Source of the DNA: Caldifarciminota bacterium 4484_100
Lineage (GTDB): Bacteria; Hydrothermota; Tepidihabitantia; SM23-42
Assembly: GCA_002049785.1 (NCBI GenBank)
Contig: MUKB01000006.1
Coordinates: forward strand, 1 to 15,826
Reading direction: 5' to 3'
DNA length: 15,826 bases
The notes under the pieces were generated by a model, which worked only from the letters and a program-made list of their open reading frames with translations, did not search any database and was not told the DNA's origin. The number at the start of each line of letters is the position of its first letter. The first letter of the stretch is position 1. Shown here one piece after another: positions 49 to 9,591 of this stretch. Position numbers and translations under genes: made by a program.

Positions 49-2130
49 TCAGGAGAATTTTTTGGGCTGCCATTTTGTTATTTTAATTACTTTGTAATGT
101 CTTTTGTTTATCTCAACCTCTTCTTCACAAACCTTGCCCAGCAGTCTCTTTGCCACCGGAGCATCATAAGAGATAATACCCTTCTTTATATCGCTGTCCC
201 AGGGTCCGAGGATGGTATATACAGTAATCTTGTTATCCTCAAGTCTCTTCAGGCTAACCTGAGTTCCAATACTTACACACTCGGTATTGATATTTTCTGG
301 GTCTAAAACCCTGGCCTTCCTCAACTGTTCTTCAATTATTCTTACCTTCTGATAGAGCTGGTCCTGTTTCTCCTTTGCTGCCTTATATTCAAAATTTTCA
401 CTAAGATCACCAAATTCTCTGGCTCGACTTATCTCTTTCTTATTTTCAGGGATCTCGACCTTAAGCAGATGTTCAAGTTCCTTCTTTTTCTTTATCAACG
501 CGGATTTTGTGGTCCAGATGAATTCCTCTTCTTTCTCAAAGAACTGAGGAAAATGGTATTCAATAATCCTGAGCATATCATTTTTTTGGTGTTCAGAGAG
601 AATGCTACTTTTTTTCACTGTCTCAGCGATATGTTTTGCCTCATCGGGTTGAGCCTGACTCAGTAACTGGTCAAATTTTTCCAGCGTCAGAATTTTGTTC
701 GTTATCGCCCTCACCCCGGTTATATATTCAAGGCTTTCAAGAATTCGTGGAATGATATTTGGCTTTAGATATTTTTCGAGTTCACCCGATTGGATTCGAC
801 GCAGAAACCACTGATACTGCGCTGGATATTGCCGGGGTAGAGCGAAGATAGTAAAATATATCTCTTCAAATTTCTCCGGTCTTTTTTTAAGTTGAGATGA
901 AATTTCATTTAGCAGTTTAGTATTACCGGTCTTGAAAAAGAGGTCTTCCAGGATTTCATATTTCTCTTCAGGATAATAGATATCCAGTAGTTCCAGTAGC
1001 TTCTTTTGATGTCCAAAGTCAACGATTTCTGTAATAAGTTCAGTTAGCCTATTCTCTTTGATAATCTGCTCAATGGTGCATTGAAATCTGACCTTTTGCT
1101 TGAGTTCATCAAAGAGGAGAAGGATACTCAGGGCAAAACCCGGTTTCTGTTTATAGACTTCATCGGCCAACTTAATCAGTTCTGGTGCAATCTTTTTAAA
1201 GAATTGGGGTAACTGTTTTGCATATTCAAGGGCGAGATGGACCTTTTCTTCTCTCTTTGCGCACCGGAACTGTTCAATCAATTCATCAACCCGGGCCATC
1301 TTCGATTCAGTGTATGCATAGGTCTTTGAGCCCCGACCTGAAATTCTTATGTTTTCATCCTTTTCTAAGGATTTGCGGACCCTTTCCCACCAGCGGTTTA
1401 ACCGTTCTTTTTCAACGATACCCTGAAGATAGTTTTTAATCTGGGTAGCTGAGAGCGGTTCGGAGAAGCTTTTTAGAAGCATCTTTATCAGCTGTATCGG
1501 ATCTTCATCTGCTAACCGCTTAAGGGTTTCCGGCTCTTTAGATCGTTTATAGAGGAAATGGTTATGATTAATCGGTATCAGCAATCCGTTGGCAATATCA
1601 ATTGAAAGAAAATCTTTTCCCTTCTTCTCGAAGTCTATTATAACCTCCCGTTTTGCTGGATTCACATCCTTCACCTCACCCAGACCATACCGCTCAAAAT
1701 AGAAGTATCTTCCAACATCATATTTTATGAACTCCTCAAATTTACTCAGGGCCTTTATAATCGGTGCATCCTGGGTTAGACCTGAATATTTCAGGTATTC
1801 ATCAATATGTTCGTTCTCTTTATATTGAGCTTTAAATAACCCTACTATTCTTTTTCTAATTTCCGAATCTTCTTTTTTAACCCGGAGCATCTTTTTATAT
1901 ACATCCAGAGCCAATTCATATTGCTGGTTTGACTCATAGCTTCCTGCAAGTAGTTCAAGCAGGAGGAGTGCACGTTCATCGTCTTTCTCTGACTTCAGGG
2001 CATCGATTATCTTTAAAAAATCTTTAAGACTAACATCTTTATCGAGTATCATCTCGGTCCAGATGTCTTCCAGAAGGTGAAGGTCCTTTTTCTGAATTGC
2101 ATCAAGGGCACGATCAAGATGGTCTGCCAT
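49..2130 (-). CDS. greA: Giant GreA/GreB-type transcript cleavage factor with long N-terminal extension
   Basis: The last ~155 of 693 residues form a complete Gre factor. A coiled coil (about 540-610) carries the acidic tip GDLSENFEY (574-582), whose Asp575 and Glu578 match the catalytic acidic pair of E. coli GreA. An FKBP-like C-domain follows (about 615-690, with the APVAKRLLGK segment). Gre factors enter the RNA polymerase secondary channel and stimulate cleavage of backtracked RNA. Normal GreA is about 158 residues. The ~535 extra residues are helical and TPR-like at 1-100, then a small beta segment with YGLGEV (about 148-153), a winged-helix-like segment (about 225-275, with RWWERVRKSL), then more helices. 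Chlamydial GreA is also ~700 residues with an N-terminal extension. The ATG has no Shine-Dalgarno and sits 5 nt after a TATAAT box. The gene is divergent from dnaA. The Gre domain is certain; the role of the extension is unknown. Confidence 0.9.
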   Translation of the reverse strand: MADHLDRALDAIQKKDLHLLEDIWTEMILDKDVSLKDFLKIIDALKSEKDDERALLLLELLAGSYESNQQYELALDVYKKMLRVKKEDSEIRKRIVGLFKAQYKENEHIDEYLKYSGLTQDAPIIKALSKFEEFIKYDVGRYFYFERYGLGEVKDVNPAKREVIIDFEKKGKDFLSIDIANGLLIPINHNHFLYKRSKEPETLKRLADEDPIQLIKMLLKSFSEPLSATQIKNYLQGIVEKERLNRWWERVRKSLEKDENIRISGRGSKTYAYTESKMARVDELIEQFRCAKREEKVHLALEYAKQLPQFFKKIAPELIKLADEVYKQKPGFALSILLLFDELKQKVRFQCTIEQIIKENRLTELITEIVDFGHQKKLLELLDIYYPEEKYEILEDLFFKTGNTKLLNEISSQLKKRPEKFEEIYFTIFALPRQYPAQYQWFLRRIQSGELEKYLKPNIIPRILESLEYITGVRAITNKILTLEKFDQLLSQAQPDEAKHIAETVKKSSILSEHQKNDMLRIIEYHFPQFFEKEEEFIWTTKSALIKKKKELEHLLKVEIPENKKEISRAREFGDLSENFEYKAAKEKQDQLYQKVRIIEEQLRKARVLDPENINTECVSIGTQVSLKRLEDNKITVYTILGPWDSDIKKGIISYDAPVAKRLLGKVCEEEVEINKRHYKVIKITKWQPKKFS

Positions 2131-2512: not shown

Positions 2513-2522
2513 CTTGAGATGA
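2448..2522 (+). CDS. Possible 24-residue leader ORF coupled to dnaA
   Basis: An ATG at 2448, five nt after AAGGA, opens a 24-codon frame ending in TGA at 2520-2522. That stop overlaps the dnaA start as ATGA. The peptide begins MIKLHKILTK and is basic with several tryptophans; no family is recognised. dnaA has no convincing Shine-Dalgarno of its own, because the bases in front of it belong to a DnaA box, so re-initiation from this frame would explain how it is translated. A chance frame this short is quite possible; no conservation evidence is available here. Confidence 0.35.
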   Translation: MIKLHKILTKRLWITMWINVENLR

Positions 2523-3838
2523 ACGAAAAGGCAAAAATTACTTGGCAGAATATTCTGGGTTATGTAAAGGAGAGGATAAATCCTCAATCCTTTACGACCT
2601 GGTTCAGCAGTAGTCAGGGTGTTGAATTGAAGGATGATGTTCTTCTGGTTGAATTCCCCAACAACTTTTTTATTGACTGGATTGAGGAACATTACTATAA
2701 TATCCTTGAAGAAGCGGTCAATTCCCTTAATGGAAACAAACTCCGTCTTGCCTTTAAGGCCCAGCGCCAGCAAGCAGACCGTCCTTTGCGTAAAAAGAAG
2801 AGATTTATTATTGCCCAGGACTCATCCAAACTTCAGGAGAGGTTCAGTTTTGAGAACTTTGTGGTTGGTAAAAATAATGAGTTTGCCCATGCAGCAGCAT
2901 TAGCAGTTGCCGAGGCGCCAGGACAGGCTTATAATCCATTATTTCTATATGGTGGTGTGGGGTTGGGCAAGACCCATCTGATGCAGGCGATCGGTAACTT
3001 TGTTCGACACCAATACCAGAACCTGAATGTCTATTATACCCAGGCCGAGAATATTATGACCGAGCTCATCGAAGCGATTCAGAAGAATCAGCAGATGGCA
3101 TTCAAGAAGAAATATCGGACCAAGGATATCCTTTTGATTGACGACATTCAGTTCCTATATGGCAAAGAACGACTTCAGGAGGAGATCTTCCATACCTTTA
3201 ATTATCTCTATATCCAGGGAAAACAGATTGTTATCACCTCAGACCGACCACCCAAGGAGATTCCCACCTTAGAGGAAAGGCTCACCTCAAGATTTCAGGG
3301 AGGTCTTGTGGTCGACCTCCAGCCACCAGACTTAGAGACCAGAATAGCTATTTTACAGAAGAAGGCTGAACAGGATAATGTGCGCATACCGAATAATGTT
3401 GCCTATTATATCGCATCAAGGGTGAAGTCGAATATCCGTGAACTGGAAGGTTGTCTCACCAGGCTTCTTGCAATGGCCTCACTCTCAGGGCAGGAGATCT
3501 CAGAGCAGCTTGCCGAGGAGGTGCTCAAAGAACTTCTGGGTTATAGCGGAAGAATTACCAAAGATATGATTCTTAATGGGGTTATTGATGAATTTGGGTT
3601 CAGCGAAAATGAGCTGAAGGGTAAAAAACGGACCCAGAAACTTGCCCTTGCCCGGCAGACTTCAATGTATCTGATACGCACCTTAATGAACCTCTCCTTT
3701 GCTGAAATCGGCCAATTCTTTGGAGGAAAAGACCATACCACAGTTATCCACGCAATAGAAAAGATTGAAAACCTGAAGAAAACCGACCTCGAATACCGCC
3801 AAAAGTTGGAGAGGATAATTAACAGGATAAATGGTTGA
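2519..3838 (+). CDS. dnaA: Chromosomal replication initiator protein DnaA
   Basis: At 439 residues this is a normal-length DnaA. The order is: N-terminal domain I (about 5-70); a short linker; the AAA+ module with Walker A GGVGLGKT (145-152), Walker B LLIDDIQ (205-211), sensor I around VITSDRPP (238-245), the box VII arginine region RLTSRF (254-259) and the sensor II arginine in SNIRELEG; and DNA-binding domain IV with the signature GGKDHTTVIHA (402-412) that reads DnaA boxes. It opens the replication origin in its ATP form. The start fits the usual DnaA N-terminus but lacks a good ribosome site and overlaps a possible leader ORF. dnaN follows in the same direction after 197 nt, the common dnaA-dnaN order at bacterial origins. 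Confidence 0.98.
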   Translation: MNEKAKITWQNILGYVKERINPQSFTTWFSSSQGVELKDDVLLVEFPNNFFIDWIEEHYYNILEEAVNSLNGNKLRLAFKAQRQQADRPLRKKKRFIIAQDSSKLQERFSFENFVVGKNNEFAHAAALAVAEAPGQAYNPLFLYGGVGLGKTHLMQAIGNFVRHQYQNLNVYYTQAENIMTELIEAIQKNQQMAFKKKYRTKDILLIDDIQFLYGKERLQEEIFHTFNYLYIQGKQIVITSDRPPKEIPTLEERLTSRFQGGLVVDLQPPDLETRIAILQKKAEQDNVRIPNNVAYYIASRVKSNIRELEGCLTRLLAMASLSGQEISEQLAEEVLKELLGYSGRITKDMILNGVIDEFGFSENELKGKKRTQKLALARQTSMYLIRTLMNLSFAEIGQFFGGKDHTTVIHAIEKIENLKKTDLEYRQKLERIINRING

Positions 3839-4035
3839 TAAGATGGGGAAAAGATTTTTTAATAAATTTAAATATCAGGTTATCAAGGTCAATCCACATA
3901 ATTATCAACCGCCTTCAAGAAATTTAGGTGCCAATTTTAAGGGTTTTAAAGACTTATTAACATTTCCACCGATACAACAACAACAGCATATTATTATTTA
4001 TTTATTATTTGCTGTTGTTATTATAAGGAGGCTTT
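3839..4035 (+). promoter_or_regulatory. dnaA-dnaN intergenic region, AT-rich, with long inverted repeat
   Basis: The region is very AT-rich. It contains AACAACAGCA (3979-3988) and its exact complement TGCTGTTGTT (4010-4019) around a 21-nt loop made only of A and T (3989-4009). The right arm ends just before the dnaN ribosome site AAGGAGG (4025-4031). Two degraded DnaA-box-like sites lie near 3892-3908. It could be a cruciform or unwinding element of the origin, or an RNA hairpin controlling dnaN. A 71-codon frame from 3831 covers the area but looks like nothing real. Confidence 0.5.
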
Positions 4036-5130
4036 ATGGAATTTAAGATTGATAAGAACATCTTAGAAAAGACAATGGGTAATATAGTGAAGATCGTCCC
4101 TCCTAAAAGCACCTATACAATTCTGCAGAATATCATAATGGAAGCAAAGGATAATACCATAGCAATTCAGGGCACTGACCTCGATATCTTTGTGAAAAAG
4201 GTAATTCCGGCAGAAGTAAAGGAACCAGGTAAAGTTTTAATTCCAGGAAAGAAGATACTTGAAATTACCCGAGAAGCAAATGCTGAGGAGATAAAGTTTA
4301 AATTAAAGGAACTCAACCTCCAGATCTCAGCGGGTAATGCCCACTTCAATATCCCTTCGCTCGACTATCAGGAATTTCCTGAGGTCCCGAAATTTCCTGA
4401 AAAGAAGTGGTTTGACCTGAGTATCGGTGAGCTTCAGGAGATGGTCAACTCGACAATATTTATGGTTGCCAGAGATATTAGCCGCCGGCCAATGAATGGG
4501 GTATTAATTCAGGTGAAAGACGACGAATTGAGATTGGTAACAACTGATGGAGCAAGGCTGGCTTTGAATAAGCGAAAGAAGATTGAGAATTCTGGAGAAT
4601 TGATTGTTGCTACAAAGCTTTTCGATTTAATTACTACTAATAAACCTGAGGAGAAAATTGAGCTCTATATCGAAGAAAGGATGATGGGTGTAAAGTTTAT
4701 GGATACGACAATAATTGCACGCTTGATTGAAGGTCCATATCCAAAGTATGAAGAGGTAATACCAAAAGCCTTTGTAGGAAATTGCACAATTGAGAAGGAG
4801 ATATTAACCGGCGCATTAAAAAGGGTTTCGTTGGTCGCCAGTCCCCATATCAAAAATGTGAAATTCGATTTTCAGGAATCAAATGTGCTGCTCTCTGCTT
4901 CATCACCAGATTTTGGTGAGGCAAAGGAAAAGGTGCCCTGTGTCTATGAAGGAGAGAAACTCGGGATCTGGTTCAATGCTGGCTACCTATTAGAAATTTT
5001 ACGACACATCAGCGCCCAGGATATAATAATGCAGCTGACCTCTCAATCAAGCGCAGCCTTAGTAAGACCGAAAAGTGAAGAGGAGCTTATTTACCTCTTG
5101 ATGCCATTAAGGATTGATGGATGGGAGTGA
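4036..5130 (+). CDS. dnaN: DNA polymerase III beta subunit (sliding clamp)
   Basis: The 364-residue length is right for a bacterial clamp of three ~120-residue repeats. The family is shown by the N-terminal pattern (MEFKIDKNILEK, then LQNIIMEA), the NTIAIQGTDLDIF segment of the first repeat, the DISRRPMNGV segment of the second, and the C-terminal LLMPLRIDGWE, which closely follows the usual MPLR ending. As a ring-shaped dimer it holds the replicative polymerase on DNA and docks many repair factors. The start is set by a strong AAGGAGG eight to ten bases upstream, preceded by a large inverted repeat. The stop lies two bases before the next gene's ATG, so a secreted-protein gene is transcribed with it. 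Confidence 0.97.
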   Translation: MEFKIDKNILEKTMGNIVKIVPPKSTYTILQNIIMEAKDNTIAIQGTDLDIFVKKVIPAEVKEPGKVLIPGKKILEITREANAEEIKFKLKELNLQISAGNAHFNIPSLDYQEFPEVPKFPEKKWFDLSIGELQEMVNSTIFMVARDISRRPMNGVLIQVKDDELRLVTTDGARLALNKRKKIENSGELIVATKLFDLITTNKPEEKIELYIEERMMGVKFMDTTIIARLIEGPYPKYEEVIPKAFVGNCTIEKEILTGALKRVSLVASPHIKNVKFDFQESNVLLSASSPDFGEAKEKVPCVYEGEKLGIWFNAGYLLEILRHISAQDIIMQLTSQSSAALVRPKSEEELIYLLMPLRIDGWE

Positions 5131-5132
5131 TT

Positions 5133-5591
5133 ATGAAAAGAATACTACTTTTAATACTACTAGTTACTTCAGGAATATCCGCACGTCAACTCGGACTGGG
5201 TATTATAATCGGTAGCCCTACCGGCCTGAGCGGAAAATATTTTTTCGGACCAAAGTCTGCTATAGAGGTAAATGCTGGCTGGTCATTCTGGCGCACCGTG
5301 GGTTTACATCTCACCGGTGACTACCAATTCATATTTCCTCAAACATTTGTTACTGAAGAGGGAAAGAAGATAGAGGGGTTTGACCTATATGCCGGAATCG
5401 GTGGTAGTTTCAGGGTGAAGGAGAAAGAGAATGAAGAGACCGAATTTCATATTGGGTTGAGAATTGGTGGAGGAATAGAATATTCTTTTAGTAAGTTCGG
5501 CACCTTTTTAGAACTCTATCCGGTAGTTGATCTGGTGCCCAGTACAGATTTTGACTTTGAGGGTGGATTAGGTCTTAGGTTCTATTTTTAG
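5133..5591 (+). CDS. Small outer-membrane beta-barrel-like protein, secreted
   Basis: This 152-residue protein starts with a clear signal peptide (MKRILLLILLVTSGISA, cleavage about residue 17). The mature part alternates glycine and aromatic/hydrophobic residues as in short beta strands and ends in FYF; a C-terminal aromatic residue is typical for outer-membrane barrels handled by BamA. An in-frame ATG at 5121 lies inside dnaN, but the ATG at 5133 has GGGAG six bases before it and begins directly with the signal peptide, so it is preferred. It is almost contiguous with dnaN. No specific family is recognised. The first rRNA promoter starts four bases after its stop with no terminator between, so read-through into 23S is possible. 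Confidence 0.75.
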   Translation: MKRILLLILLVTSGISARQLGLGIIIGSPTGLSGKYFFGPKSAIEVNAGWSFWRTVGLHLTGDYQFIFPQTFVTEEGKKIEGFDLYAGIGGSFRVKEKENEETEFHIGLRIGGGIEYSFSKFGTFLELYPVVDLVPSTDFDFEGGLGLRFYF

Positions 5592-5594
5592 GTA

Positions 5595-5622
5595 TTGACA
5601 GATAATAAAATATCGATATAAT
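5595..5622 (+). promoter_or_regulatory. rRNA promoter P1
   Basis: Perfect TTGACA (5595-5600) and perfect TATAAT (5617-5622) with a 16-nt spacer, directly after the preceding stop codon. It is the distal of two promoters of the 23S-5S unit. Confidence 0.85.
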
Positions 5623-5654
5623 GATAGGCTTTTATTTTTAATGCTTTTAGCACC

Positions 5655-5682
5655 TTGACAAAAGGTGAAAATTGATTATAAT
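5655..5682 (+). promoter_or_regulatory. rRNA promoter P2
   Basis: Perfect TTGACA (5655-5660) and perfect TATAAT (5677-5682) with a 16-nt spacer, exactly 60 bp downstream of P1. A second overlapping TATAAT begins at 5682 but would need a 21-nt spacer. The predicted start near 5689 gives a ~60-nt leader before mature 23S. Confidence 0.85.
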
Positions 5683-5709
5683 ATAATAGCTGAAATTTGA
5701 ATTTAATAT

Positions 5710-5721
5710 TGTTCTTTGACA
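5710..5721 (+). promoter_or_regulatory. boxA-like antitermination element of the rRNA leader
   Basis: TGTTCTTTGACA differs from the E. coli rrn boxA TGCTCTTTAACA at two positions, and the following AATTTATCA also matches the E. coli rrn leader. boxA recruits the NusB-NusE (S10) antitermination complex. Its place in the leader of a 23S-only unit is as expected for a complete rRNA transcription unit. Confidence 0.65.
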
Positions 5722-5734
5722 ATTTATCAAGATT

Positions 5735-5743
5735 GGCGGAAGG
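5735..5743 (+). other. Left arm of 23S rRNA processing stem
   Basis: GGCGGAAGG here is the exact reverse complement of CCTTCCGCC at 9442-9450, and GAT on the outer side continues the pairing with ATC at 9451-9453 after one extra T. Together with the mature-end helix this forms the long duplex that encloses pre-23S, the usual RNase III substrate. Confidence 0.75.
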
Positions 5744-6273
5744 TCTTAGGTCCAAGTTACTAAGGGCACATGGTGGATGCCTTGGCATCTGGAGGCGATG
5801 AAGGGCGTGGTAGGCTGCGTTAAGCGTCGGGTAGGTGCGAACAACCTTTGACCCGGCGATGCCCGAATGGGAAAACCCATCCTGTTGAAAGACAGGATAT
5901 CCAGTCTTTATGGCTGGAGGCGAACCAGGGGAAGTGAAACATCTCAGTACCCTGAGGAAAAGATATTTCGAGAGTAGCGGCGAGCGAAATCGAAACAGCC
6001 CAAACCGAACTGCATGTTCAAGCGGGCAAGCGTTGTGCAGTCGGTGTAGTGGGGTTCAGTCGAACCCGATTTGCCCTGAGGGTTGTGGAGTTACAAAATC
6101 TTGGGATAGCCGAAATGTCCTGGAAAGGCATACCATAGATTGTGATAGTCAAGTAGGCGAAATCCTCAAGATCTCCATTGACTGAATTCCCAAATACCAC
6201 GAGATAGGTTATCTCGTGGGAATCTGCCCAAACCACTGGGTAAGGCTAAATACTCCCGGATGACCGATAGTGA

Positions 6274-6307
<34 letters not shown>

Positions 6308-7794
6308 TGGCGGGGAGTGAAATAGAACCTGAAACCATGTGTCTACAATCAGCAGGAATTTTGATCTCTTGGAAGTAATTCCGAGAGGCCATCAAAATGA
6401 CTGCGTGCCTTTTGCATAATGAGCCGGCGAGTTACCCTAACCTGCGAGCTTAATCCTGCTACGAAAGTATCAGGAGTAGGCATAGGGAAACCGAGTCTGA
6501 ATAGGGCGATTTAGTAGGTTGGGATACGACCCGAAACCCGGTGAGCTACCCATGGTCAGGATGAAGTTCCGGTGACACGGAATGGAGGTCCGAACCGGTG
6601 GATGTTGAAATATCCTCGGATGAACTGTGGGTAGGAGTGAAAGGCTAACCAAACCGGGTGATAGCTGGTTCTCCCCGAAATGCTTCTAGGAGCAGTCTTG
6701 GATGTTCAGTAGTAGTGGTAGAGCACTGAATAGAGGAGGACCCTTCGGGGTTCAAATCCAATCAAACTCCTAATGCTACTACTTCACAGTCCAGGAAAGA
6801 GGCAGTGGGGGATAAGCTCCATTGCCGAGAGGGGAATAACCCAGACCGCCAGCTAAGGTCCCTAAGAATTGATTAAGTGGGAAAGGATGTAAAGTGACTT
6901 AAACACCTGGGATGTTGGCTCAGAGGCAGCCATCATTTAAAGAGTGCGTAACAGCTCACCAGCCGAGCCACTTTGCGCCGAAAATATACCGGGGCTCAAA
7001 TCAATCACCGAAGCTGCGGACCTGTATCGCTTAGATACAGGTGGTAGGGGAGCGTTCCATTGTAGGCCGAAGTCTCACCGCGAGGTGGGGTCGACGAAAT
7101 GGAAGTGATTATGCCGGCATAAGTAGCGATAATCTCGGTGAAAAACCGGGACACCGTAAGCCCAAGGGTTCCTGGGGAAGGTTAATCCGCCCAGGGTTAG
7201 TCGGTGCCTTAGTCGAGGCCGAAAGGCGTAGGCGATGGGAAAGCCGTTAATATTCGGCTACCACCTTAGTTTCGTTATGAACTATGGGGGGACGCTGATG
7301 CTACGGGTGGGTCCTGTGTTGGAATACAGGATCTAAACATCTCAAGTGAGACTTCAGGCAAATCCGAAGTCTCTTAATCTTGAGATGTGATGGGGAGACC
7401 CAAAAGGGTCACAAACCCACCCTGAGAATCAGCCGAGAAAAGCCTCTATGTCAGAAACTAAGGTGACCGTACCGGAAACGGACACACGTGGGCGAGGTGA
7501 ATATCCTAAGGTGCTCGGGTGAACCCTCGTTAAGGAACTCGGCAATCTAACCCCGTACCTTCGGTAGAAGGGGTCCCCACTTCGGTGGGGCGCAGTGAAA
7601 GGGCTCTAGCGACTGTTTAACAAAAACACAGGTCTCTGCTAAGCCGTAAGGCAAAGTATAGGGACTGACACCTGCCCGGTGCCAGAAGGTTAAGGAAGGA
7701 TGTTATTCCCGGGATGAACTTCGGTTTAGCCCGGGAAGAAGCTTCTGACCGAAGCCCTGGCAAACGGCGGCCGTAACTCTAACGGTCCTAAGGT

Positions 7795-8458
7795 AGCATA
7801 AGCTGCCTGAATTCAGCTGTATGCGGGAAAATCCTTAGAGCCTTGACTACGAGGTTAAAGTTATTAACCCGTAAAAATGTCAAGGATTGGATAATCCGCA
7901 GGAAATTCTGCTGAAGCAGAAGATCCTCAGAGGCCATACGCTGAGCATTTAGTTCCTTAGGAGGTATTATGAAACTCAGTGAGGACTGGATTATAGGTTT
8001 TGTTGACGGTGAAGGATGTTTTCATATATCAGTTCTCAGGCATCCTGAAATGAATACAGGATATCAAGTTCTTCCTGAATTTACAGTTGTCCAACACGAA
8101 CGGGACAAGCAAATTCTTTATGCCTTAAAATCCTACTTCAAATGCGGTGTTGTGCGAAAAAATCGTGGTGACCGATGGTGCTATCGAATTCGTAAACTCA
8201 GCTGTCTTGAAACTCTATGCAACTTCTTCAGCAAACACCCTTTAAAGACGAAGAAGAATGTTGATTACATAAAATTCCGACGGATTATTCAAGATATGAT
8301 ACAGGGAAAACATCTTACGAAGGAAGGTTTGAAGAAGATTATTAAAACCGCTATGACAATGAATACCGCAGACAGAAAGAAACTTCTCCAAATCAAACAA
8401 AACCTGGGAATTAAATGAAGAGATGGTCCACACCATAACGAAAGTTATGGAGTATGTG
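7795..8458 (+). ncRNA. Group I self-splicing intron in 23S rRNA, E. coli position 1931
   Basis: The 23S sequence runs ...CCTAAGGT, breaks off, and resumes AGCGAAATTCC, placing the insertion after U1931. P1 reads directly: exon AGGT plus intron AGC (7791-7797) pairs with GCTGCCT (7802-7808) over an ATAA loop, with the required U-G pair at the 5' splice site. P3 is 7814-7822 with 7936-7943, bulging one T. P4 is TGCGGG (7822-7827) with TCCGCA (7895-7900). The P6 hairpin is 7906-7921 with a TGAA loop. P7 is GGCCAT (7932-7937) with ATGGTC (8423-8428). P8 is 11 bp (7946-7956 with 8407-8417) and holds the ORF in its loop. P9 is CCATAAC-GAAA-GTTATGG (8433-8450). The last base is the expected G (8458). 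The intron also starts with AGC, so GCT (7802-7804) can pair with the 3' exon as P10. Exact edges of P3/P7 are by eye. Confidence 0.93.
7969..8418 (+). CDS. LAGLIDADG homing endonuclease encoded in the 23S intron
   Basis: This 149-residue protein carries one LAGLIDADG motif (IIGFVDGEG, residues 8-16); Glu15 sits where I-CreI has its metal-binding Asp20. A single motif means it should act as a homodimer. Downstream features typical of the family are VVQHERDKQIL, a YFKCGVV turn, YRIRKL, and the FFSKHPLKTKK and HLTKEGL segments. Its expected role is to cut intron-less 23S genes at the 1931 junction so that repair copies the intron in. It has a strong AGGAGG (7959-7964) four nt before the ATG. 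The frame lies wholly inside the P8 loop except for its last codons, which form the 3' strand of P8. It appears intact, with no stop or frameshift, which suggests recent activity. Confidence 0.92.
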   Translation: MKLSEDWIIGFVDGEGCFHISVLRHPEMNTGYQVLPEFTVVQHERDKQILYALKSYFKCGVVRKNRGDRWCYRIRKLSCLETLCNFFSKHPLKTKKNVDYIKFRRIIQDMIQGKHLTKEGLKKIIKTAMTMNTADRKKLLQIKQNLGIK

Positions 8459-8756
8459 AGCGAAATTCCTTGGCGGGTAAGTTCCGTCCTGCACGAATGG
8501 TGTAACGACTAGAGCGCTGTCTCGACGAGGGGCCCGGCGAAATTGTAGTGGCGGTGAAGATGCCGCCTACCCGTGATAGGACAAAAAGACCCCGTGAACC
8601 TTTACTGCAACTTGCTATTGGATCTTTGCTGAACATGTGTAGCATAGGTGGGAGGCTTTGAAGCCTCGGCGTCAGCTGGGGTGGAGCCGCCAGTGAAATA
8701 CCACCCTTGTTCTGTCAGGGGTTCTAATCCGCTATGTGGAATAGCGGAGACAGTGG

Positions 8757-8808
<52 letters not shown>

Positions 8809-8951
8809 CCAAAGGTTCCCTCAGTCCGGTCGGTAATCGGACATTGAGTGTAAGGGCATAAGGGAGCCTGACTGTGAGGCCGACAGGCCGAGCAGACAGG
8901 AAACTGGGGCCTAATGATCCGGTGGTTCCGTGTGGAAGGGCCATCGCTCAG

Positions 8952-8987
<36 letters not shown>

Positions 8988-9013
8988 GGCTCGAGAGTTC
9001 ATATCGACGGCCC

Positions 9014-9054
<41 letters not shown>

Positions 9055-9100
9055 GACAAGGTCCCAAGGGTTGGTCTGTTCGCCCATTAAAGCGGTACGT

Positions 9101-9133
<33 letters not shown>

Positions 9134-9260
9134 ACTCTATCCATCACGGGCGTAGGAGACTTGAGAGGAGCTGTCCTTAGTACGAGAGGACCAGGATGGA
9201 CGGACCTCTGGTGTACGAGTTGTTGCGCCAGCAGCAGCGCTCGGTAGCTATGTCCGGAAG

Positions 9261-9293
<33 letters not shown>

Positions 9294-9441
9294 CACCTTA
9301 AGATAAGGTCTCCCGTTCCTTAGGTGGCAACACCAAAAGGACCTGAAGACTACCCGTAGATGACGGGTTATATAGGCCACAGGTGTAAGTGCAGCAATGC
9401 ATTGAGCCGAGTGGTACTAATCAGTCGTGCGACTTGGATTT

Positions 9442-9450
9442 CCTTCCGCC
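9442..9450 (+). other. Right arm of 23S rRNA processing stem
   Basis: CCTTCCGCC is the exact complement of 5735-5743 and starts just after the 3' end of mature 23S. It shows that 23S is released from a precursor separately from 5S, which follows 24 nt later. Confidence 0.75.
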
Positions 9451-9473
9451 ATCTTTTTAAAATTTCAAAAAAT

Positions 9474-9591
<118 letters not shown>

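Follow-up and report, generated by a model that had tools for sequence, protein, structure and literature searches.

A group I intron of the L1931 lineage with a LAGLIDADG endonuclease gene in the 23S rRNA gene of a Caldifarciminota (WOR-3) bacterium

Mobile group I introns inserted at position 1931 of the 23S rRNA gene (L1931) and carrying endonuclease genes are known from Thermotoga, Synechococcus, Simkania, CPR bacteria, archaea and organelles. According to the available part of PMC1995217, the Thermotoga and Synechococcus introns measure 666–700 nt and include a single-motif LAGLIDADG ORF of 162–167 aa. The Synechococcus ORFs extend into the ribozyme core, and these introns have a complex P5 and no P2. 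The same text lists the Simkania 23S intron as L1931. Archaeal L1931 group I introns are filed under subtype IB4 in the accessible portion of PMC6125680. Position 1931 is also among the CPR rRNA insertion positions with LAGLIDADG_1 genes given in excerpts of PMC11270868, which further describe the endonuclease I-ShaI (one LAGLIDADG_1 domain, group I-like flanks, site 23IS7) as demonstrated to cut its target; 23IS7 is taken here to be position 1931, judged from the order of the list in that source. A maturase-like action has been described for the Thermotoga neapolitana protein (PMC3984707, in part).

The stretch of DNA analysed here, called the window, comprises 15,826 nt of contig MUKB01000006.1 from the assembled bin of Caldifarciminota bacterium 4484_100 (G000). 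Its 23S rRNA gene is interrupted by an insert which, compared by description, is like the Thermotoga and Synechococcus introns in site, in size and in its single-motif LAGLIDADG gene (PMC1995217, in part). It is 664 nt long and its 149-aa ORF ends in J8/7; the ORF reaching into the core, the complex P5 and the missing P2 are shared with Synechococcus, while the window host belongs to a different phylum from both. The published subtype of L1931 introns differs between the available parts of PMC1995217 and PMC6125680. The CPR introns at position 1931 and I-ShaI, the latter again compared by description, resemble the insert in their LAGLIDADG_1 domain, but the window host lies outside the CPR (PMC11270868, in part); the archaeal introns share site and group I core, in hosts that are archaeal (PMC6125680, in part). 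In the endonuclease tree, the putative homing endonuclease of PDB 5gkk lies in the same half as the window, the solved protein having 170 residues versus 149 in the window. We conclude, with a probability of about 0.93, that the insert is a complete L1931-lineage group I intron and is probably still mobile, its splicing and homing being predicted from sequence.

Boundaries, ribozyme fold and encoded protein

The 5′ exon ends with CCTAAGGT at 7794 and the 3′ exon starts with AGCGAAATTCC at 8459, so that the insert occupies exactly 7795–8458. The initial annotation, which had proposed a complete group I intron with unambiguous junctions, was thus exact to the base, and the uninterrupted site of a relative of the same genus (G001) can be set alongside. 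The covariance search it had suggested gave a match to RF00028 of 55.7 bits (E 5e-12; gathering cut-off 50) over the complete model (1–253). This match begins at 7749 and hence does not mark the 5′ boundary; its score lies 5.7 bits above the cut-off, perhaps because a 450-nt ORF sits in P8. In an alignment to an E. coli 23S gene copy, annotated with a shorter length of 2590, the last 5′-exon base falls 973 bases upstream of where the annotation places the 3′ end. Taking the length of E. coli 23S rRNA to be 2904, this places the insertion at position 1931, in agreement with the annotation.

The features are collected in Table 1. Pairing was counted in 39 introns, namely the window, its relative in another genome (G011) and 37 of the best 80 loci of a genome scan described below. 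Of the 41 loci in that half of the endonuclease tree to which the window belongs, these 37 are left after removal of four in which one junction is missing (L060, L076, L080, L089); the counts exclude the 39 loci of a second deep clade.

Table 1. Features of the interrupted 23S rRNA gene and its intron (window coordinates; pair statistics from 39 introns)
Feature	Position	Strand	Evidence
23S rRNA gene, intron-interrupted	5750..9441	+	RF02541 full model 1–2925, 2684.9 bits, match spans insert
Group I intron L1931, 664 nt, terminal G at 8458	7795..8458	+	RF00028, junctions, uninterrupted G001 site
P1: 7791–7797 with 7802–7808 (guide sequence); splice-site U7794 pairs G7805	7791..7808	+	95% standard pairs, 39 introns
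P10: 7802–7804 with 3′-exon 8459–8461	7802..8461	+	98% standard pairs, both-sided changes none
P3: 7812–7817 with 7940–7945	7812..7945	+	100% standard pairs, both-sided changes 5/6 pairs
P4: 7822–7826 with 7896–7900; encloses P5, P5a, P5b	7822..7900	+	100% standard pairs
P5: 7831–7834/7889–7892	within P4	+	83% standard pairs, both-sided changes 4/4
P5a: 7841–7847/7879–7885	within P4	+	98% standard pairs, both-sided changes 5/7
P5b: 7849–7858/7864–7872	within P4	+	83% standard pairs, both-sided changes 7/9
P6: 7901–7903/7924–7926	7901..7926	+	100% standard pairs
P6a: 7906–7911/7916–7921	within P6	+	93% standard pairs, both-sided changes 6/6
P7: 7932–7936 with 8424–8428	7932..8428	+	99% standard pairs, both-sided changes 2/5
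P8: 7948–7956 with 8407–8415; loop contains endonuclease gene	7948..8415	+	83% standard pairs, both-sided changes 9/9
Shine-Dalgarno AGGAGG of endonuclease gene	7959..7964	+	sequence
Single-motif LAGLIDADG homing endonuclease gene, 149 aa	7969..8418	+	PF00961 E 2.4e-27, PDB 5gkk E 4.8e-57
P9: 8433–8439 with 8444–8450, GAAA loop	8433..8450	+	94% standard pairs, both-sided changes 7/7

The related introns support a predicted P3–P9 core with P7, which we take by homology to be the guanosine-binding helix, functioning as in group I introns. The helices which the annotation had paired by eye (P1, P3, P4, P6, P7, P8, P9, with the terminal G at 8458) were all recovered, with 83–100% standard pairs. 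The U·G pair at the 5′ splice site is present in 39/39 introns, both-sided changes in P1 affect one of its seven pairs, and 26/39 introns have a non-standard pair at the outer end of P5. As a control, partners were slid by 1–3 columns, which left the helices 3–69% paired (P8, 29–58%; P9, 26–43%). Both-sided changes remained numerous in the slid P5b (5–7/9), P8 (5–8/9) and P6a (2–6/6), so that for these helices it is the share of paired cells which constitutes the evidence. P4, P6 and P10 show no both-sided changes and hardly vary, and are thus little informative. Among 14 rows, the P2 hairpin is absent from the window, G011, L049, L050, L051 and L053 and is apparently present in others, for example L055. 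A free fold of 7785–7968 reached −65.6 kcal/mol (z −5.2 against shuffles); it differs in places from the group I core and includes a helix between the exon and the Shine-Dalgarno region considered below.

Most of the insert, within the P8 loop, is occupied by an intact endonuclease ORF, a gene missing from the initial annotation, and its presence would explain the mobility of the intron. The LAGLIDADG_1 domain (PF00961) forms one stretch, and the match to PDB 5gkk scores 195 bits over residues 1–142; NCBIfam gave no family for the protein at E 0.001. Among 3513 candidates 3503 were homologues, the closest being P0001 (90%) and P0002 (82%), the latter being the sequence found in G011. Residue E15 and the GFxDxEGCF motif show no variation among 21 aligned sequences. 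The dN/dS ratio against G011 is low, about 0.08 (NG86) to 0.12 (YN00), which indicates that the gene has been kept. Its stop codon (8416–8418) lies directly 3′ of P8, in J8/7, that is, in the ribozyme core. The stop ends 40–42 nt 5′ of the 3′ splice site in 30/39 introns and elsewhere in nine. In L052 and L053 the ORF extends to the 3′ splice site and the stop ends one base inside the 3′ exon.

The insert is best explained as an ordinary mobile L1931 intron/endonuclease element, and its mechanism is likely to be the standard one; splicing, cleavage, homing and any maturase help are what we infer from these features. Once the 23S precursor has been transcribed, the intron would fold into its P3–P9 core and bind guanosine in P7. 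Cleavage would follow U7794, presented by P1 as the U·G pair, and alignment by P1 and P10 would allow the exons to be joined into an uninterrupted 23S rRNA with the expected junction CCTAAGGT-AGCGAAAT. The excised RNA, or the precursor, would be translated from the AGGAGG at 7959 into the single-motif LAGLIDADG protein, expected to act as a homodimer, to cleave this site in 23S genes that lack the intron and so to let repair copy the intron in. The endonuclease may also aid the splicing of its own intron, as reported for Thermotoga neapolitana.

A group I fold is no guarantee of splicing. In Everett et al. 1999, judging by its title, the Simkania intron listed above as L1931 is reportedly unspliced in the 23S rRNA. 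The window intron might likewise be kept in the 23S rRNA, or be excised without ligation so that the 23S rRNA works in two pieces. We consider this quite unlikely: P1 with its splice-site U·G, P7, P9 and P10 are all kept, the interrupted gene is the sole 23S match in the bin (53% complete), and the insertion site belongs to the functional core of the ribosome.

Host locus and relatives with and without the intron

The window offers an intact syntenic comparison in a little-known bacterial group, since G000 carries the intron, G001 of the same genus does not and G011 again does. In G001 (99% complete) the site is uninterrupted, and the 27 bases upstream and 30 downstream are identical to the window flanks. 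The neighbourhood dnaA-dnaN-23S is common to all three. The 23S and 5S genes follow dnaA and dnaN (window 2519–9591), and the window has no 16S gene; a 16S gene was likewise not found in the 53% complete bin. On the minus strand, window 49–2130 encodes a 693-aa protein with a GreA-like C-terminal domain and a long N-terminal part; it resembles GreA fusion proteins, with all matches below curated cut-offs.

The bin consists of 136 contigs, and one might suppose that a foreign intron-bearing 23S fragment was joined to the contig during assembly or binning. This is extremely improbable. The window exons on the two sides match G001 at 96.3% and 98.2%, which gives no indication that the contig is chimeric at the intron; these values leave out gaps, which on the 5′ side amount to 204 columns owing to 102 additional bases in G001 and the offset that follows from them. 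DnaA and DnaN encoded on the contig are 95% and 91% identical to those of G001, gene order is the same, and another genome, G011, has the same intron, 84% identical. The extra 102 bases of the G001 23S gene, which the window lacks, lie opposite window 7032.

Among 65 genomes of the class, 34 have the uninterrupted site (searched as 26 bases with up to two mismatches), three have the endonuclease gene (G000, G011 and G027) and the remaining 28 lack both, at least some of them having a 23S gene broken at scaffold gaps. The introns of G011 and G027 have the same junctions as the window. Scattered 23S rRNA pieces in five single-contig relatives (G004, G006, G007, G018, G020; L042–L048) were considered as split genes and rejected: in 7/7 fetched stretches a piece lies at most 50 bases from a run of 100 N, which indicates scaffold gaps.

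The distribution in these three genomes raises the question of how the intron came to be shared between two genera. For the G000–G011 pair, silent-site divergence calculated by formula reaches saturation in DnaA and DnaN, and identical codons were counted instead. Where the amino acid is the same, codons are identical at 62% of 115 positions in the endonuclease, compared to 44% of 353 in DnaA (Fisher p 0.001) and 46% of 262 in DnaN (p 0.005). Fourfold sites are identical at 25/44, 48/127 (p 0.034) and 31/95 (p 0.009), respectively. The highest of 131 overlapping 149-codon windows of DnaA and DnaN reaches 55%, and within the genus (G000–G001) codon identity is 58% for DnaA and 51% for DnaN. These silent sites suggest that the intron moved between the two genera after their split, in a comparison of one short gene with two by a test chosen after the data had been seen.

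Alternatively, an ancestor common to G000 and G011 already carried the intron, which was then exactly lost from G001, an account which competes with transfer and leaves the identification of the intron untouched. The greater likeness of the endonuclease silent sites speaks against it, but at the amino-acid level the endonuclease (82%) is close to DnaA (83%) and above DnaN (75%), identity in the intron's non-coding 5′ portion (90.7%) does not exceed that of the exons (91.1% and 92.8%), and both introns share the dnaA-dnaN-23S neighbourhood. We regard such vertical inheritance as somewhat doubtful, yet well worth keeping in mind.

Transfer may also be combined with a regulatory peculiarity of this sub-lineage. 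The 5′ exon at 7786–7793 is exactly complementary, over eight bases, to the Shine-Dalgarno region at 7955–7962, and this is the helix that forms when the 5′ part is folded freely. Two of the 39 introns, those of the window and G011, have an eight-base match; for the remaining 37, longest matches range from 2 to 6 bases, four being the commonest value (27/39). If translation were coupled to splicing, the precursor would keep the endonuclease gene closed, and departure of the exon would open it. That the intron homed between genera of one WOR-3 family after their split and that endonuclease translation is coupled to splicing in this sub-lineage is, taken together, an unlikely proposal.

Distribution of related introns

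A genome scan with the single endonuclease protein gave no match. With an endonuclease alignment it gave at least 578 pattern matches and at least 453 loci encoding relatives. The best 80 of these at least 453 loci fall into 18 named phyla, with eight loci having no named phylum. Both junctions are at the position-1931 site in 74/80 of them; in six (L060, L076, L080, L088, L089, L120) one junction is missing within the stretch searched. The statement in the initial annotation that group I introns are rare in bacterial rRNA no longer holds in view of these numbers, and L1931 introns appear widespread across uncultured bacteria. Its view that the intron bears on horizontal spread was sound. Its claim of a new host stands in part: in the literature searched we found no report combining WOR-3 and a group I intron, but five of the best 80 of the at least 453 loci already have the WOR-3 label. 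The window intron adds to the known L1931 class in this host group and is ordinary as a single finding. Bacterial L1931 sequences are now far more numerous than in the 2007 table (PMC1995217, in part), which makes the question of an organellar or bacterial reservoir testable.

An endonuclease tree of 87 rows sets the window, P0001 and G011 apart as a separate starred group. Five changes, four of them forced by starred branches, are needed for the five rows from Caldifarciminota (WOR-3), the shuffled mean being 4.9. An AU test rejected a single clade of nine rows (window, P0001, G011, L086 from G027, L050, P0003, L055, L056 and L061; p = 6e-5), of which P0001 and P0003 are unlabelled and were added, after the tree had been seen, as nearest to labelled rows. 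Judged from this tree, the WOR-3 endonucleases do not form one clade, with the reservation that the bins may hold foreign contigs. A clade of the window, P0001, G011 and G027, which belong to the same class, was not rejected (p 0.247), and this is no demonstration of a separate acquisition by the lineage of G027. No related endonuclease gene was found in the phage records searched, so that phages as carriers are without support in that collection.

RF00028 also scored above the cut-off in 12 of 61 genomes besides G000, 11 from the same family and one from the same order (L002–L013). In 12/12 the intron, of 258–621 nt, lies in the anticodon loop of tRNA-Asn(GUU) (ARAGORN, introns allowed; for example L004, 1477–1808); a contig-end fragment in G013 (L016) yielded no tRNA. 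Group I introns in other tRNAs are named in the available parts of PMC5733544, PMC8450103 and PMC3984707, where no bacterial one in tRNA-Asn was found, and tRNA-Asn is possibly a new host gene for bacterial group I introns. Two of these introns (L007, L008) include an ORF of 115 aa that matches HNH weakly, under the cut-off, and a third (L009) contains what by eye is a remnant.
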